Below are positions 20,364 to 26,961 of a stretch of DNA of 64,000 nt, piece by piece. Made by a program: the position numbers and the translations under genes. The notes beneath the pieces were generated by a model. It was not told where the DNA came from, did no database searches, and worked only from the letters and a program-made list of their open reading frames with translations. Position 1 is the stretch's first letter. Each line of letters begins with the position of its first letter. Source of the DNA: Candidatus Thioglobus sp. (GTDB taxonomy: Bacteria; Pseudomonadota; Gammaproteobacteria; Arenicellales; UBA868); the NCBI GenBank assembly GCA_004212795.1, contig SHBR01000004.1, forward strand, positions 1 to 64,000. The letters run 5' to 3'.

Positions 20364-20978
20364 TCAGGGTGAAAATCCATCGCGAGGTTCGTCAACTGAG
20401 GAGCCTTTGATCAAGTTGCCAAACGACTTCGAAAGTCTTTTGGCAAGATCAGGGCCGTCGATCTCCATGACTTGATCGATCACCCACCGATTGGTTTGAT
20501 CATCACCCATTATCGCTTTTACTCGATCTCCAAAAACACGCAGAAGACTGTAGCCCGGCAAACCTCTTTGAAACGAGCATTGACCGTAATCAGAACTGCG
20601 ATCGTTAAGTGTGGCAATAAACGCATCTCGATAACCCCCAGAACCCAAGATTTCGCTGGCGTTACGTTGTAGTTGCGCTCCGCAATTGTAGGCGAGCGCA
20701 GACACAAACTCGGGCCGATCGCCTTCGTCGAGAATATCAAAAGCCAGTCGGTCCGCGACGTGTACGAGGAAGATAAGATATTCTCGAATGACCCCAACCC
20801 GTTGTTGGTCATCATCATAGATATAATCCTCCGCGTGTAGATTACGGGCAGATGTTAATGCGAGTTGCCAGCATACGTAAGCCAACGCTTTCGCATTTTC
20901 CTCAAGCGGAACAGGTTGTCCGGCATTTCGCCACCGGTCGCGGATTCTTGTTGCCATAGTGTTGCTTCTCACTGCCAT
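20364..20978 (-). CDS. Conserved-looking helical protein, unknown function
   Basis: I do not recognise this 204-residue product. It is predicted largely helical, soluble and cytoplasmic, with no signal, membrane segment or metal motif; a central part reads YNCGAQLQRNASEILGSGGY. A second ATG at 20957, with GAGAAG before it, may be the true start. Its start faces that of the next gene at a distance of only 19 (or 40) bases, which suggests shared control. It belongs to the accessory set between sox and dsr, so a sulfur-related role is inferred from location only. Confidence 0.7.
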   Translation of the reverse strand: MAVRSNTMATRIRDRWRNAGQPVPLEENAKALAYVCWQLALTSARNLHAEDYIYDDDQQRVGVIREYLIFLVHVADRLAFDILDEGDRPEFVSALAYNCGAQLQRNASEILGSGGYRDAFIATLNDRSSDYGQCSFQRGLPGYSLLRVFGDRVKAIMGDDQTNRWVIDQVMEIDGPDLAKRLSKSFGNLIKGSSVDEPRDGFSP

Positions 20979-20997: not shown

Positions 20998-22044
20998 ATG
21001 TCGTCACTCCCTGATTTGTTTATTAATTCAATCAAATACAACTGCGATCTCTCTGATGCAGAGCACGCCGGTGATTATTCGTTGTGCGTTTATCTAATGC
21101 ATATGAGAGAGTATTTTAGGTGGGAACAGAATCTGCCCTACGATGCGAAACTGGATGCCGGGTCGGTTGGAGAGTGGGTATCGGCGCGTGAGCAATATTG
21201 GAACACCTTGGAAGGTCAGTTTTATCGCAAGATTCCGTTGCCAACTGGTGAAGTCGATGCTTTTGATATCGAGCAGATCAACAGCTGGCTTGTGCCGCAA
21301 GGTTACGGCTATAGCGCTGGGATTGGTCGCTTCGATAAACCGGTTTTTTCGCTTGGCCGCCTGACCACATTTGAGCAGGGAGATGGGTATGAGCTTTTTT
21401 ATACTGGAGAAGAGGTTGTTCGTGACCTGATCTCGCCTCCCGCCATGACGCGCGGTACGACGATATGGATTCGACAAGAAGCGCTTCGCCGGGTTTTATG
21501 GGAGATGATTGAGGAATGGCGGTGGAAAAAACCCAAAAATGCGATGGCCCGAACGCTCGCCGGTTATGGATTTGGTCAAGATCCAGAGACTGCGCTTGAT
21601 CGAATGGCTGAGCAATTCAGTGAGTTCGCGATCCTGCATGAACTGGGAGAAAAAATATGCGGAGAGTGTCTAGGAGACGACTGGAATCAGATGGTGATGG
21701 CTGCAAGCAACCGAGCACAAGAGATTATGATTCGCGCGATTCGAGACCTGCTTGCTGACTGCATGATGGTGCTACCGGCCCTATTAAGTCAGGAAGAAAA
21801 GTCCGCCCTACATTTTTATTTTGCCACCATGACCGGCGTTCGACGGCAATTGTTTCCGTCGCTATTTAACGCCTATCAACGCTGGGTTGATCTGGGAGAT
21901 TTTCAACCCCTTAGAAAAATCGTGCGCGAAGGAAGTCGTCACTGGCGTTGCCAGGCCGTCGGACTCTTAGAGCGACATCGGGCAAGTGGCGAGCTGCGGA
22001 ACAGCGTTTTTGACGGATGTTCGATCGAAGCGCTTTCTCTTTAG
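20998..22044 (+). CDS. Conserved hypothetical protein of the sulfur accessory region (Sfum_1244-like, tentative)
   Basis: The 348-residue product begins SSLPDLFINSIKYNCDLSDA and has an N-terminal tryptophan- and tyrosine-rich part (YLMHMREYFRWEQNLPYD) and a helical C-terminal half. From memory this resembles a conserved family named after Sfum_1244, of unknown function, but I could not check it. No signal peptide or transmembrane segment is seen. AAGG lies seven bases before the ATG. It ends eight bases from the convergent 67-residue gene. A role linked to Dsr sulfur metabolism is inferred from neighbours. Confidence 0.72.
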   Translation: MSSLPDLFINSIKYNCDLSDAEHAGDYSLCVYLMHMREYFRWEQNLPYDAKLDAGSVGEWVSAREQYWNTLEGQFYRKIPLPTGEVDAFDIEQINSWLVPQGYGYSAGIGRFDKPVFSLGRLTTFEQGDGYELFYTGEEVVRDLISPPAMTRGTTIWIRQEALRRVLWEMIEEWRWKKPKNAMARTLAGYGFGQDPETALDRMAEQFSEFAILHELGEKICGECLGDDWNQMVMAASNRAQEIMIRAIRDLLADCMMVLPALLSQEEKSALHFYFATMTGVRRQLFPSLFNAYQRWVDLGDFQPLRKIVREGSRHWRCQAVGLLERHRASGELRNSVFDGCSIEALSL

Positions 22045-22686: not shown

Positions 22687-23385
22687 TTAATGTTCAGATT
22701 CTGGCTGGTGAACGGCCGATATACTTTTGGAGGGCATAAAAACTCCGCATCCGAATAATCGGTCCGGTCCCAACCCGTGCGTCTGAACGGCGATGGATTC
22801 GTTAGGGTCGAGCTCCGCGATTAAAAGGCTCCGGGTCGAGATAATCGACTCATCCATTTTTAGATGACGCACTCCTCCACAGAGCATTTTTTTGGGCGTA
22901 ATGGCGAGATCTTCTAGCCAGTGCGCTGCAGAAGCTAGAAATGCCGGTTCGCTATTCGTGCTATCCAGTGTTCGAACATGGTGGGAAAAAATGGTCGAAT
23001 TGGTCGAAAGTGGTCGAGGTTTTGCATCAAGTATTTCAATCTTGTGCTCATCAAGATTCAAAGTAAGGCCGATCAATGCTTTTGCGTCTTCAAGTCGAGA
23101 GTGTGGCACTCTAATGATGAGGCGGGTTCGACCCGAAAGCTCAATAATGCCGCTATCGTCGGGTTTGCACCATCCATTAGCGGATTGCGCGCCGTGGATG
23201 AGATGGATACTGACCTCTCGTTCAGTGTAAAGCCATGGGAGTTCAGCTGTGAGCGCTTTTGATAAAGCAAAAGCATGATCAGCTGCTACCTGTCGGCCTC
23301 GAATCTTAAAGACGATATCAACCACAACGGGTTCTATTGGTTTAGCTCTTTCAAGCCCAGATTCAGTCCAGTAGGCAGATGACAT
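22687..23385 (-). CDS. Stand-alone Cas6/Cmx6-like protein
   Basis: The 232-residue product resembles the Cas6/Cmx6 family of CRISPR RNA endoribonucleases (type I-MYXAN variant). Its first half has the pattern VDIVFKIRGRQVAADHAFAL ... LPWLYTE ... SGRTRLIIRVPHSRLEDAKAL ... ILDAKPRPL. Its C-terminus has the glycine-rich RNA-binding loop of RAMP proteins, GLGPDRLFGCGVFMP at 204-218, followed by SKSI. Histidines that could serve catalysis exist (for example in FSHHV), but the active site is unassigned. No other cas gene or CRISPR array is in the window. Its place in an operon with rspA, divergent from dsrAB, suggests a recruited RNA-binding or RNA-cleaving role. Confidence 0.72.
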   Translation of the reverse strand: MSSAYWTESGLERAKPIEPVVVDIVFKIRGRQVAADHAFALSKALTAELPWLYTEREVSIHLIHGAQSANGWCKPDDSGIIELSGRTRLIIRVPHSRLEDAKALIGLTLNLDEHKIEILDAKPRPLSTNSTIFSHHVRTLDSTNSEPAFLASAAHWLEDLAITPKKMLCGGVRHLKMDESIISTRSLLIAELDPNESIAVQTHGLGPDRLFGCGVFMPSKSISAVHQPESEH

Positions 23386-23393
23386 TGTGATTC

Positions 23394-24098
23394 TTACTGT
23401 ATTGGCAACGTGGCCTGGATTGCCTCTCGATCAATCCACCAGTTGTCTTGTACTAATACGTCAACAACATTTCGGAGGCGCGGTAGGAATCGAATGGGGT
23501 CGTTTAATTCGAGTCTAGAGATCCATTGATCAAACGCTTCCTGGTTTTCAATGCTGCTGTGTCGACGTGCCACCGCACCCAACATCTGGTTGGTAAAAAA
23601 AGACAAGGATTCGTGCTCTTTTCCTTCCGCTCGTAAATCAACAATATAGGCAGCAACAGCAGCCGCAACGGCAGCGCCATCAGAGTCATCGGGTGTTTCG
23701 TCGATGATATCTTGTAGGAGTGCTACTGAAAGCTCTGGATCGACTGGAAAAGTCACTGCGAGCCAGACGCCGTGACCGAGTGCAACAAGTGAATCAGAGT
23801 GTCCCGACTGGAACATGATTCGTGCGGCTTCAACAGTGTCTGCCCAAAGCTTTGCGTCACAAAACTGGTCAAAGCAACTTTTGGCGCTCGACCAAGCTTC
23901 ATCGCCTTTTTCGAGCATGACCAAAAGGCGGCCTTCCTGCAATGCGAGCTGGCGCCATTGAGGGGCGTCAATTTGAGCCCGGGCTTCATTTAACCTTTCT
24001 CTTACCGCGCCAAGCTGGGCCTCAAGCGCCTCTACTGAAGTTGAAGCATCCTCATCAGATTCGGCGCCGAGGTCAAATTCGTTGTTAAGATATTTCAT
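23394..24098 (-). CDS. Helical repeat-like protein of unknown function
   Basis: This 234-residue acidic protein starts eight bases upstream of the Cas6-like gene in the same operon. It shows an N-terminal coiled-coil-like helix (ALEAQLGAVRERLNEARAQI) and then helical hairpins resembling TPR-type repeats (QLALQEGRLLVMLEKGDEAW; DTVEAARIMFQSGHSDSLVA). No catalytic motif, signal or membrane segment is evident. A scaffold or partner role for its operon neighbours is possible but is inferred only from the fold impression and gene position. Confidence 0.68.
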   Translation of the reverse strand: MKYLNNEFDLGAESDEDASTSVEALEAQLGAVRERLNEARAQIDAPQWRQLALQEGRLLVMLEKGDEAWSSAKSCFDQFCDAKLWADTVEAARIMFQSGHSDSLVALGHGVWLAVTFPVDPELSVALLQDIIDETPDDSDGAAVAAAVAAYIVDLRAEGKEHESLSFFTNQMLGAVARRHSSIENQEAFDQWISRLELNDPIRFLPRLRNVVDVLVQDNWWIDREAIQATLPIQ

Positions 24099-24325: not shown

Positions 24326-25255
24326 TTAAGCCTCAGTTGAAATGGGTTGCGCATAGCGACCGCGGTATATCAAACGCCCCGCGCGATCGTCTGAGTCAAA
24401 AAAAGGTTCTCTTCGATGCGGAATGTTTGCACTTAACAATCCCTCACCGGCCTGAAGCTGATATCTAAAGCGGATACTGGGGTCTTCAAGATATTCTTCG
24501 AGCGCGTCTTTTGCTTCCGAGATCAAAGAGGTGTTTTTCCAAACGACATTGTGTTTTCGAGCGGTATAGCGCATCTGTAGGCAGTCATTTTCGAAAAAGA
24601 AAACGGGGCCTAAAGAGGCTTCGCGATTGGCACCATGTGCTTGATTCTCAGGAATCCACATGACATCAGGCATCCGAAGGGCTTCGGTGAATCGATGGTC
24701 TTGTTGATGAAGAAGTCCGTAAAGTGCTCGCGCATCTATGGCTTCAAGCGATCCGCCTGTCTCGGCTGGCCGAACACAATGAAGTAGCATTGCCCGGACA
24801 GGATTTTTGTGACTACGATAGTAGCCATCGGTATGCCAGTTGAGCGCGCGATTCGTGTAGGGAATGTATTGGCTTGAGTGTCCATTCGCCTTCACTTCGA
24901 TTTCGCTAAGACCATCGTCGGCTGCAAAGAGATTGTGGGTGGGATTAACCAAGCCGAACTGTTCTGCCAGTTGGGCGACTTGGTTGCGATTTACGGCTTC
25001 CGACGGACTGCATCGGTAAACCACCATATTGGCGCTACTGAGCCGAGCCTGAATCGCCGAGCGTTCCTGAGCCGTCAGATTTGATGGCGTTTCGATATCA
25101 ACGATGAGTGTTTCTAAAGACTCCCGATATTTGCAAAGCCAGTTATCCCAATGACGCTCATTTCCAAAGACATTTGCTTCAGGAGCGCGCGGCGTAATCG
25201 TTGATTGATATGAAGTTAAGTTCAAAGCGGCAAAACATTTAAGATTTTCGATCAA
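24326..25255 (-). CDS. TauD/TfdA-family 2-oxoglutarate-dependent dioxygenase
   Basis: The iron triad is visible: His141 and Asp143 in LNWHTDGYY and distal His280 in SANIPHRREPF, with arginines at 291 and 294 as candidates for 2-oxoglutarate binding. Length of 309 residues fits the family. TauD releases sulfite from taurine, so a sulfonate-type substrate is conceivable near dsr, but nothing in the sequence fixes it. It is the first gene of the six-gene minus-strand operon and is read away from dsrA. An oxygen-requiring enzyme here implies an aerobic or microaerobic lifestyle. Confidence 0.85.
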   Translation of the reverse strand: MIENLKCFAALNLTSYQSTITPRAPEANVFGNERHWDNWLCKYRESLETLIVDIETPSNLTAQERSAIQARLSSANMVVYRCSPSEAVNRNQVAQLAEQFGLVNPTHNLFAADDGLSEIEVKANGHSSQYIPYTNRALNWHTDGYYRSHKNPVRAMLLHCVRPAETGGSLEAIDARALYGLLHQQDHRFTEALRMPDVMWIPENQAHGANREASLGPVFFFENDCLQMRYTARKHNVVWKNTSLISEAKDALEEYLEDPSIRFRYQLQAGEGLLSANIPHRREPFFDSDDRAGRLIYRGRYAQPISTEA

Positions 25256-25695
25256 AAGATTGTAACGAGGCGACAGGATTAGAAAACTCTCCCAAAAGAC
25301 GGATTCAACGGTAATTTTGGATGCAGAGAAGCGGGTATGATCGAGTCGTCGAAAATATGATGGGTTCGAAAGATATTTAAACTATTGTTTTTGAAGGGTA
25401 AATAATAGACCCAGGGCTTTTGGTCCCAAGCAGGATTTCTGCATTGCAAAATAAAACCTATCCCTTAGTGGATAAACCAGAATTTTTAATGGCAACCCCC
25501 CGGGGGAATGGCGTCGACTAGGACCGCGCTTAAAATGGGACTAGAAATTAAGACCAGTGCTTAAGCAAGGCTTTCTCGAGAACGAGGCGTAGCAATTTAT
25601 TTAATTGGAGAGCCGATCCGTTGTGAGTAGTGAGATTGTTGTGCGACTTCCGCACAGTGATTCGGAACCGGAAAGAAAGAGGAATAGTGACAGGT
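25256..25695. promoter_or_regulatory. Divergent control region between the accessory operon and dsrA
   Basis: This 440-base stretch, the longest gap in the window, has no gene. It must hold promoters for both the dioxygenase-led operon and the dsr operon. I see a perfect palindrome CCCCCGGGGG at 25497-25506, an inverted repeat TTAAG-N7-CTTAA at 25548-25564, and the word ATTAAGACCA (25547-25556) that also occurs upstream of the dsrS-like gene. No clear sigma-70 or sigma-54 promoter could be chosen. A leader of over 100 bases before dsrA is likely. Confidence 0.55.
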
Positions 25696-26961
25696 ATGAC
25701 TGATAAAAAGCAACACGAAACCCCGATGCTTGATGAACTTGAAAATGGCCCCTGGCCAAGTTTTATTTCGGGCATCAAACGCCTTCGTGATGAGCATCCA
25801 GAGGCGCGCATTAATGGTGTTGCCAATGATCTGCTGGGGCAGCTTGAGCACTCTTACGAGACCCGCAAAGGCTACTGGAAAGGCGGCACGGTCAGCGTTT
25901 ATGGTTACGGTGGCGGCATTATTCCGCGCTTCTCGGAGGTTGGTCAGCAGTTTCCAGAATCAAAAGAGTTTCATACGCTGCGCGTGCAACCTCCCGCGGG
26001 CAATCACTATAGCACCGACATTCTTCGACAACTTGCTGACAGCTGGGAGAAGTGGGGGTCTGGTCTGGTTACGTTCCATGGCCAGACGGGCAACATCATG
26101 TTTATCGGTTCTTCGACAGATAATACGCAACATTTTTTCGATGAGATCAACGATTATGGGTTTGATCTCGGTGGTGCAGGACCTTGTGTTCGAACCGCGA
26201 TGTCTTGTGTTGGGGCTGCACGATGTGAGCAGTCCTGCGCGAATGAACACAAGATTCATAGAACGCTCGTTAATAATTTTACGGATGATGTGCATCGACC
26301 TGCGCTTCCCTATAAATTTAAATTCAAGGTTTCGGGTTGTCCCAACGACTGCATGAACTCCATCGAGCGAGCAGATATGGCGGTCATTGGCACCTGGCGT
26401 GACGATATGAAAGTGGATCAGGAGGCTTGGAAGGCCTATGTATCTGAAAAAGGGCGCCAGCACACGATTGATAACATCATTACACGCTGCCCAACCCGTT
26501 GCATGAGTCTGAAAGACGATGATTCGCTGGAAGTTGATAACCGGAACTGCGTGCGGTGTATGCACTGCCTGAACGTGGTTCCAAAAGCGTTATCGCCAGG
26601 TGAAGACAAGGGCGTCACTATATTGATGGGTGGAAAGCGCACCTTAAAGATTGGTGATCTGATGGGCACAGTGATTGTTCCCTTTATGAAACTTGAGTCT
26701 GAAGAAGATTACGAAAAGATTACTGAAATAGCTGAAAATACGATTGATTTTTGGGCCGAGAACGGCCTTGAACATGAGCGCTGCGGGGAGATGATTGAGA
26801 GAATTGGTCTGGTCAACTTCTTGGAGGGTATCGAAATTGAGGTGGATCCTCATATGATTTCCGATCCACGACAGTCTTCTTATGTCCGCATGGATGGTTG
26901 GGACGAAGAAGCAGTGAAGTGGTTTGAGCGCCAGGCAGAAAGCCAGTCGGCCACAGGTTAA
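25696..26961 (+). CDS. dsrA: Reverse-type dissimilatory sulfite reductase alpha subunit
   Basis: DsrA with DsrB oxidises sulfur (delivered by DsrC) to sulfite in the cytoplasm. The siroheme/[4Fe-4S] cysteines Cys171, Cys177, Cys215 and Cys219 are seen (SCVGAARCEQSC and GCPNDC), plus a ferredoxin insertion with Cys265, Cys269, Cys285, Cys288 and Cys291. Length of 421 residues is normal. ATG at 25696 was preferred; GTG at 25687 with AGAGGA before it is possible. Presence of dsrEFH and dsrL shows that this is the oxidative type. Confidence 0.97.
   Translation: MTDKKQHETPMLDELENGPWPSFISGIKRLRDEHPEARINGVANDLLGQLEHSYETRKGYWKGGTVSVYGYGGGIIPRFSEVGQQFPESKEFHTLRVQPPAGNHYSTDILRQLADSWEKWGSGLVTFHGQTGNIMFIGSSTDNTQHFFDEINDYGFDLGGAGPCVRTAMSCVGAARCEQSCANEHKIHRTLVNNFTDDVHRPALPYKFKFKVSGCPNDCMNSIERADMAVIGTWRDDMKVDQEAWKAYVSEKGRQHTIDNIITRCPTRCMSLKDDDSLEVDNRNCVRCMHCLNVVPKALSPGEDKGVTILMGGKRTLKIGDLMGTVIVPFMKLESEEDYEKITEIAENTIDFWAENGLEHERCGEMIERIGLVNFLEGIEIEVDPHMISDPRQSSYVRMDGWDEEAVKWFERQAESQSATG

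Follow-up and report, generated by a model that had tools for sequence, protein, structure and literature searches.

A CRISPR-free Cas6 at the reverse-Dsr locus of Gammaproteobacteria, a probable exaptation to sulfur oxidation

The window analyzed here, a stretch of 64,000 nucleotides from Candidatus Thioglobus sp. (contig SHBR01000004.1), carries a gene for a Cas6 protein back to back with an oxidative-type dsr operon, and the same pairing of cas6 with dsrA recurs across the Gammaproteobacteria. Cas6 proteins are CRISPR RNA processors; both family and fold identify the window gene as a Cas6, and it is not a CRISPR component. We think it probable that this Cas6, free of any CRISPR system, has been exapted to bind or process RNA as part of gammaproteobacterial reverse-Dsr sulfur oxidation, and for the exaptation to sulfur oxidation as such we see very little room for doubt. 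The initial annotation of this DNA had proposed that a Cas6 fold was recruited to an RNA role at dsr. The recruitment stands, and is strongly supported as something far more general than a stray event, as it holds across the class; the RNA target fared less well, as searches for it gave nothing specific. The features discussed are collected in Table 1.

Table 1. Features of the window around cas6 and the start of the dsr operon
Feature	Position	Strand	Basis or remark
dsr-associated Cas6, 232 aa	22687..23385	minus	Profiles, predicted fold, alignment
RspA-like DsrC paralogue, 112 aa	22317..22655	minus	DsrC family match, no redox cysteines
p234, uncharacterized all-helical TPR-like solenoid protein (predicted)	23394..24098	minus	Directly upstream of cas6, same presumed operon
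TauD/TfdA-family dioxygenase	24326..25255	minus	First gene of presumed operon
p204, uncharacterized conserved protein	20364..20978	minus	Same strand, at most 5 kb from cas6 in 36/73 loci
Sfum_1244-family protein (DUF6866)	20998-22044		Family match
dsrA, start corrected to 25696	25696..26961	plus	First gene of oxidative dsrAB-EFH-C-MKL operon
Palindrome TATCCCttagTGGATA, consensus TATCCC-N4-GGGATA	25459..25474	plus	Upstream of dsrA

The cas6 reading frame begins with ATG. The initial annotation had described a Cas6/Cmx6-like protein with a C-terminal glycine-rich loop and had suggested profile searches and structure prediction as the check; profiles, sequence, and predicted fold all agree with that description. 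The protein belongs to PF09559 in a Pfam profile search (E 1.5e-53), scores 111.7 bits against the cut-off of 98.9 with the NCBIfam model TIGR02807 (cas6_cmx6), and is also called Cas6 by PADLOC, while Pfam PF10040 (CRISPR_Cas6) found no match in its own genome. An AF2 model (mean pLDDT of 83.6) predicts two tandem RRM/ferredoxin-like domains. The nearest solved relative by sequence is the Cas6 of a type I-B CAST (8fcj; E 6e-11 for the single sequence and 5e-25 as a profile), and fold comparison of the model gave Z 24.4 to 8fcu/8fcj (rmsd 2.0 over 195 residues, 24% identity), with many further Cas6 structures next. The CAST protein shares the two-domain fold and the glycine-rich loop, but it acts in Cascade and the transposon together with CRISPR arrays, partners that the window Cas6 lacks, and by alignment it has Asn where the window protein has His37. 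Cas6 of Pyrococcus furiosus (3pkm, 3qjj) has the same fold at Z 15-16, and its catalytic His also lies close to helix 1 (PMC3652601), but it is a CRISPR processing enzyme and only ~10% identical.

Among relatives of the host, 43 of 61 have a Cas6 homologue, a single gene each and once split over two contigs, and nearly all of their 20-kb neighborhoods place cas6 beside TauD and divergent from dsrA. We then compared PF09559 with strong dsrA matches in a class-wide sample of 274 gammaproteobacterial genomes. Cas6 was present in 91 and dsrA in 94, with both in 87 genomes and neither in 176 (odds ratio 547, Fisher p 2e-57, phylogeny being ignored). The co-occurrence survey that the initial annotation had called for shows Cas6 tracking dsrA, with little if any association with Cas1 and none with DevR/Cas7. 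The two genes share a contig in 66 genomes and are 0.6-4.5 kb apart in 65 of these. Nearly all exceptions are contig ends. All four Cas6-only genomes have a contig end beside TauD, which would place dsrA on sequence absent from the assembly, and in five of the six inspected dsrA-only genomes the contig breaks right upstream of dsrA. The sixth (G270 in our numbering; 86% complete) has an intact upstream region with no cas6 in it, and in G147, a member of the same family, cas6 is carried by a different contig; the seventh dsrA-only genome, G297, offers fragments only. Genomes of ~1 Mb still carry cas6 next to dsrA.

Outside the class the picture is different. In a second sample of 398 genomes, the five Cas6 carriers were exactly the five gammaproteobacterial dsrA carriers, and PF09559 occurred in none of the 48 dsrA genomes of other classes. 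Twelve reverse-Dsr loci of other classes were read, none of which has cas6, RspA, p234, p204, or the operator described below; five have the full oxidative operon, and in four of those five a TauD-like gene is divergent from dsrA. Reverse-Dsr loci of other proteobacterial classes thus do without Cas6, which is not intrinsically needed by the enzyme, and the preservation of the TauD-dsrA divergence beyond the Gammaproteobacteria (loci L239-L241 and L243) suggests an old role of TauD in oxidative sulfur metabolism. Cas6-RspA seems to be an innovation of the Gammaproteobacteria, added behind a TauD-dsrA arrangement that is older.

It is also important to ask whether the gene could after all be an ordinary CRISPR Cas6, working on arrays located elsewhere in the genome, with its place beside dsrA an accident. 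It does pass the cas6_cmx6 cut-off, and Cas1 is found somewhere in 42 of the 91 carriers (62 of 183 noncarriers; p 0.06). However, the other 49 carriers have no Cas1, single-contig genomes among them (G079, G094, G104, G140, G142, and G192), and DevR/Cas7, the effector partner of Cmx6-type Cas6, was found in 0 of the 274 gammaproteobacterial genomes. Presence of the gene follows dsrA, as described above, and in a tree of 58 sulfur-locus and 7 CRISPR Cas6 proteins the two sets split with support of 100/98, on long branches and with the root not fixed. We therefore regard an accidental CRISPR Cas6 as highly improbable. The immediate surroundings agree. As the initial annotation had reported, there is no other cas gene and no repeat array in the window, and no CRISPR-like array occurs further along the contig, up to its end at 74,864. 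The host's own genome (78% complete) yielded neither Cas1 nor DevR/Cas7. Two outcomes had been named as ones that would overturn the idea: no Cas6 profile match together with a fold lacking ferredoxin-like domains, or a CRISPR-Cas locus just beyond the window, with this gene grouping with it. Neither is what we find; profiles and predicted fold are those of Cas6, the contig has no array, and the gene is on a branch apart from CRISPR Cas6. A present-day phage or mobile origin was rejected as well, as viral contigs and phage records yielded no relative.

Of the relatives found in CRISPR systems, the nearest are Cas6/Cmx6 proteins of cyanobacterial plasmids, of type I-MYXAN. These belong to the same Pfam and NCBIfam families, are 25-28% identical to the window protein, have the DH motif (His37) in 7/7, and conserve the loop. 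They differ in that six of the seven adjoin cas3 with further cas genes, in forming a clade apart, in having no NGW insertion, and at the positions of E146, R86, and K166. On the Gloeobacter morelensis plasmid pGMOR1 (L201, 4974-8237) we noted a Cas6/Cmx6 without annotated cas neighbors, after which come a PAPS-reductase-family protein and a cupin.

On the minus strand of the window, TauD, p234, cas6, and rspA presumably form one operon. The dsr operon, dsrABEFHC-MKL, is of the oxidative type and is transcribed away from cas6, and soxX, soxY, soxA, and a soxB-like gene lie at 14.8-18.9 kb. This bears out the placement of cas6 in the initial annotation, beside rspA and divergent from dsrAB. The rspA product is a DsrC-family protein with a conserved C terminus (RKGGY), which we take to be RspA; it lacks both DsrC redox cysteines and so cannot itself carry sulfur. 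The arrangement, a cysteine-less DsrC-family protein adjoining cas6 in an operon divergent from dsrA, invites comparison with regulation of the dsr locus by DsrC/RspA. We know of no described RNA-binding partner of RspA. Full-text searches of open-access literature, with subscription journals mostly outside their scope, likewise revealed no link between Cas6 and dsr and no such partner, only unrelated CRISPR passages.

Partner genes were counted in 73 nonredundant cas6 loci with 3.5 kb on each side. In 63 of these dsrA lies within 5 kb of cas6, divergent in every case (63/63). TauD is near cas6 in 60, RspA in 55, and p234, adjacent, in 33. RspA is the commonest direct neighbor, being immediately next to cas6 in 53 of the 73, which makes it the strongest candidate among these proteins for direct partnership with Cas6. 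Family searches with p204 and p234 gave no informative match, and the fold predicted for p234 is all-helical and TPR-like. The DUF6866 protein is near 27 of the 73 cas6 genes, on the opposite strand in 26 of those 27.

In some genomes cas6 has moved away from dsrA without being lost; in G117 it is accompanied by RspA, and in G239 by TauD. It is outside the dsr locus in L186 and L211 (genomes G169 and G285, 1.4-1.6 Mb), divergent from rnc, the gene for RNase III, in the former and from a gene of similar size and position in the latter. Relocated copies are found beside RapZ in a Marithrix genome and beside a SpoU methylase in another, and the RNA-gene neighbors, RNase III included, may be a coincidence. 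In L045 and L046 (G053 and G048) cas6 is accompanied by p204, in L045 also by TauD, with no dsrA within the fetched DNA.

The glycine-rich loop is the RNA-binding signature of Cas6. In the window protein it spans C-terminal residues 204-218, GLGPDRLFGCGVFMP, and G204, G206, G212, G214, and F216 are each kept in at least 98% of 143 sequences, G214 in all 143 and G212 in 142. His37 sits just N-terminal of helix 1 (residues 38-48) in the model and is retained in 136 of the 143 sequences and in 7/7 CRISPR relatives. Together with His61 and His64 it is present in 120 of the 143, and at least one of the three histidines is found in 142. Active-site histidines of other Cas6 enzymes are in or near helix 1 (PMC3652601), and by its position His37 may be catalytic. 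Four relatives from one genus have F37 and Y61, two of the three conserved histidines being lost, so the function that is conserved may be something other than cleavage, which that genus may be able to do without. It should be kept in mind that Cas6 enzymes without a histidine can still be active and that RNA chaperoning may matter as much as cleavage for Cas6 (PMC3652601). Between close species, dN/dS for cas6 is 0.16-0.20, indicating purifying selection. The purifying selection, the conserved loop, and the histidines that have been kept speak for a protein that still works in RNA binding; we judge RNA binding likely on these grounds, and give RNA cleavage an even chance.

Alternatively, Cas6 might have lost its RNA activity and serve a structural or a protein-binding role in a regulatory complex that also comprises RspA, p234, and perhaps p204. 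The stability of the operon partners, the loss of His37 and His61 in one genus, and the predicted TPR-like, protein-binding fold of p234 would all fit such a role, but the loop glycines are among the most conserved residues of the protein (G214 and G212 above all) and a single sequence of the 143 lacks all three histidines, which makes a purely structural part rather unlikely in our estimate.

If Cas6 is instead the RNA-binding protein that we favor, the following mechanism may be envisaged. Cas6 has very probably left CRISPR and become a permanent part of the gammaproteobacterial reverse-Dsr locus, where it would bind a specific RNA, probably to make a single cut or to hold it, like Cas6 enzymes. 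It would thereby process or stabilize a transcript needed while the dsr operon is in use, the simplest target being the long dsr mRNA or a coexpressed small RNA. RspA, a DsrC look-alike unable to carry sulfur, may be its partner or the sensor subunit. That the target is a transcript of the dsr locus is a tentative suggestion, to which we give about one chance in three. We give somewhat less than an even chance to the idea that Cas6 and RspA form a module for RNA-level control of sulfur oxidation, a CRISPR-derived, CRISPR-free endoribonuclease or RNA chaperone acting on dsr-linked transcripts that was acquired once in the Gammaproteobacteria and kept in essentially all reverse-Dsr genomes.

It is also conceivable that Cas6 and RspA act on tRNA or another sulfur-relay RNA and so link sulfur status to tRNA thiolation or translation. 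RspA is of the DsrC/TusE family and is the most frequent direct neighbor, and DsrEFH and DsrC are similar to the Tus proteins that relay sulfur for 2-thiouridine in tRNA. The cas6 gene also lies beside rnc in one lineage and beside RapZ or a SpoU methylase in others, where chance may be responsible. Set against this are the missing cysteines of RspA and the lack of any direct evidence for tRNA, and we consider a tRNA role improbable, at about the level of the structural one.

With an exapted RNA-binding Cas6, a whole clade would be tied to energy metabolism, clearly exemplifying how a Cas protein can be domesticated for housekeeping gene expression, in hosts that belong to the bacteria driving much of marine sulfur oxidation. 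Such a Cas6 would point to a step of sulfur metabolism that involves RNA binding and is as yet undescribed, and the question of how dsr expression is controlled would become a search for the RNA bound by Cas6. For annotation, profile-based methods label such proteins as CRISPR components although they are not.

Several candidate RNA targets were considered. An Rfam search around the locus returned one sub-threshold match, at 11 kb, and no family. Synonymous-site conservation in twelve genes across 119 nonredundant loci revealed no convincing embedded RNA element, the strongest signal (3.7 SD) being inside cas6 itself, and no shared RNA element was seen in the dsrA leader. A strong hairpin (z over 2), usually with a G-rich 5' arm, closely follows dsrC in the dsrC-dsrM gap of 41 of 67 loci (for example, L187, L197, L094, and L099). 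As it is missing from the window and found in two of five Cas6-free reverse-Dsr loci, it was rejected as a Cas6-specific target; this stem-loop may be a 3' stabilizer or an attenuator for dsrC.

The last candidate is the palindrome TATCCC-N4-GGGATA. Of 70 nonredundant regions upstream of dsrA, 41 contain it, against an expectation of 0.7, always with a spacer of four. Were it an RNA hairpin recognized by Cas6, its loop of exactly four bases and its absence from the cas6-free reverse-Dsr loci of other classes that were read would be in keeping with that role. However, the natural variants GAGATA and TGGATA against TATCCC break pairing on either strand, as would be expected of a DNA operator, and the palindrome sits upstream of a conserved -10-like box of dsrA. 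A hairpin target is accordingly very unlikely and was rejected, and the element is best read as a DNA operator. Of 59 such sites in 1.76 Mb of fetched loci, 53 are at dsrA, and the palindrome is probably the class-wide operator of a putative dsr transcription factor.
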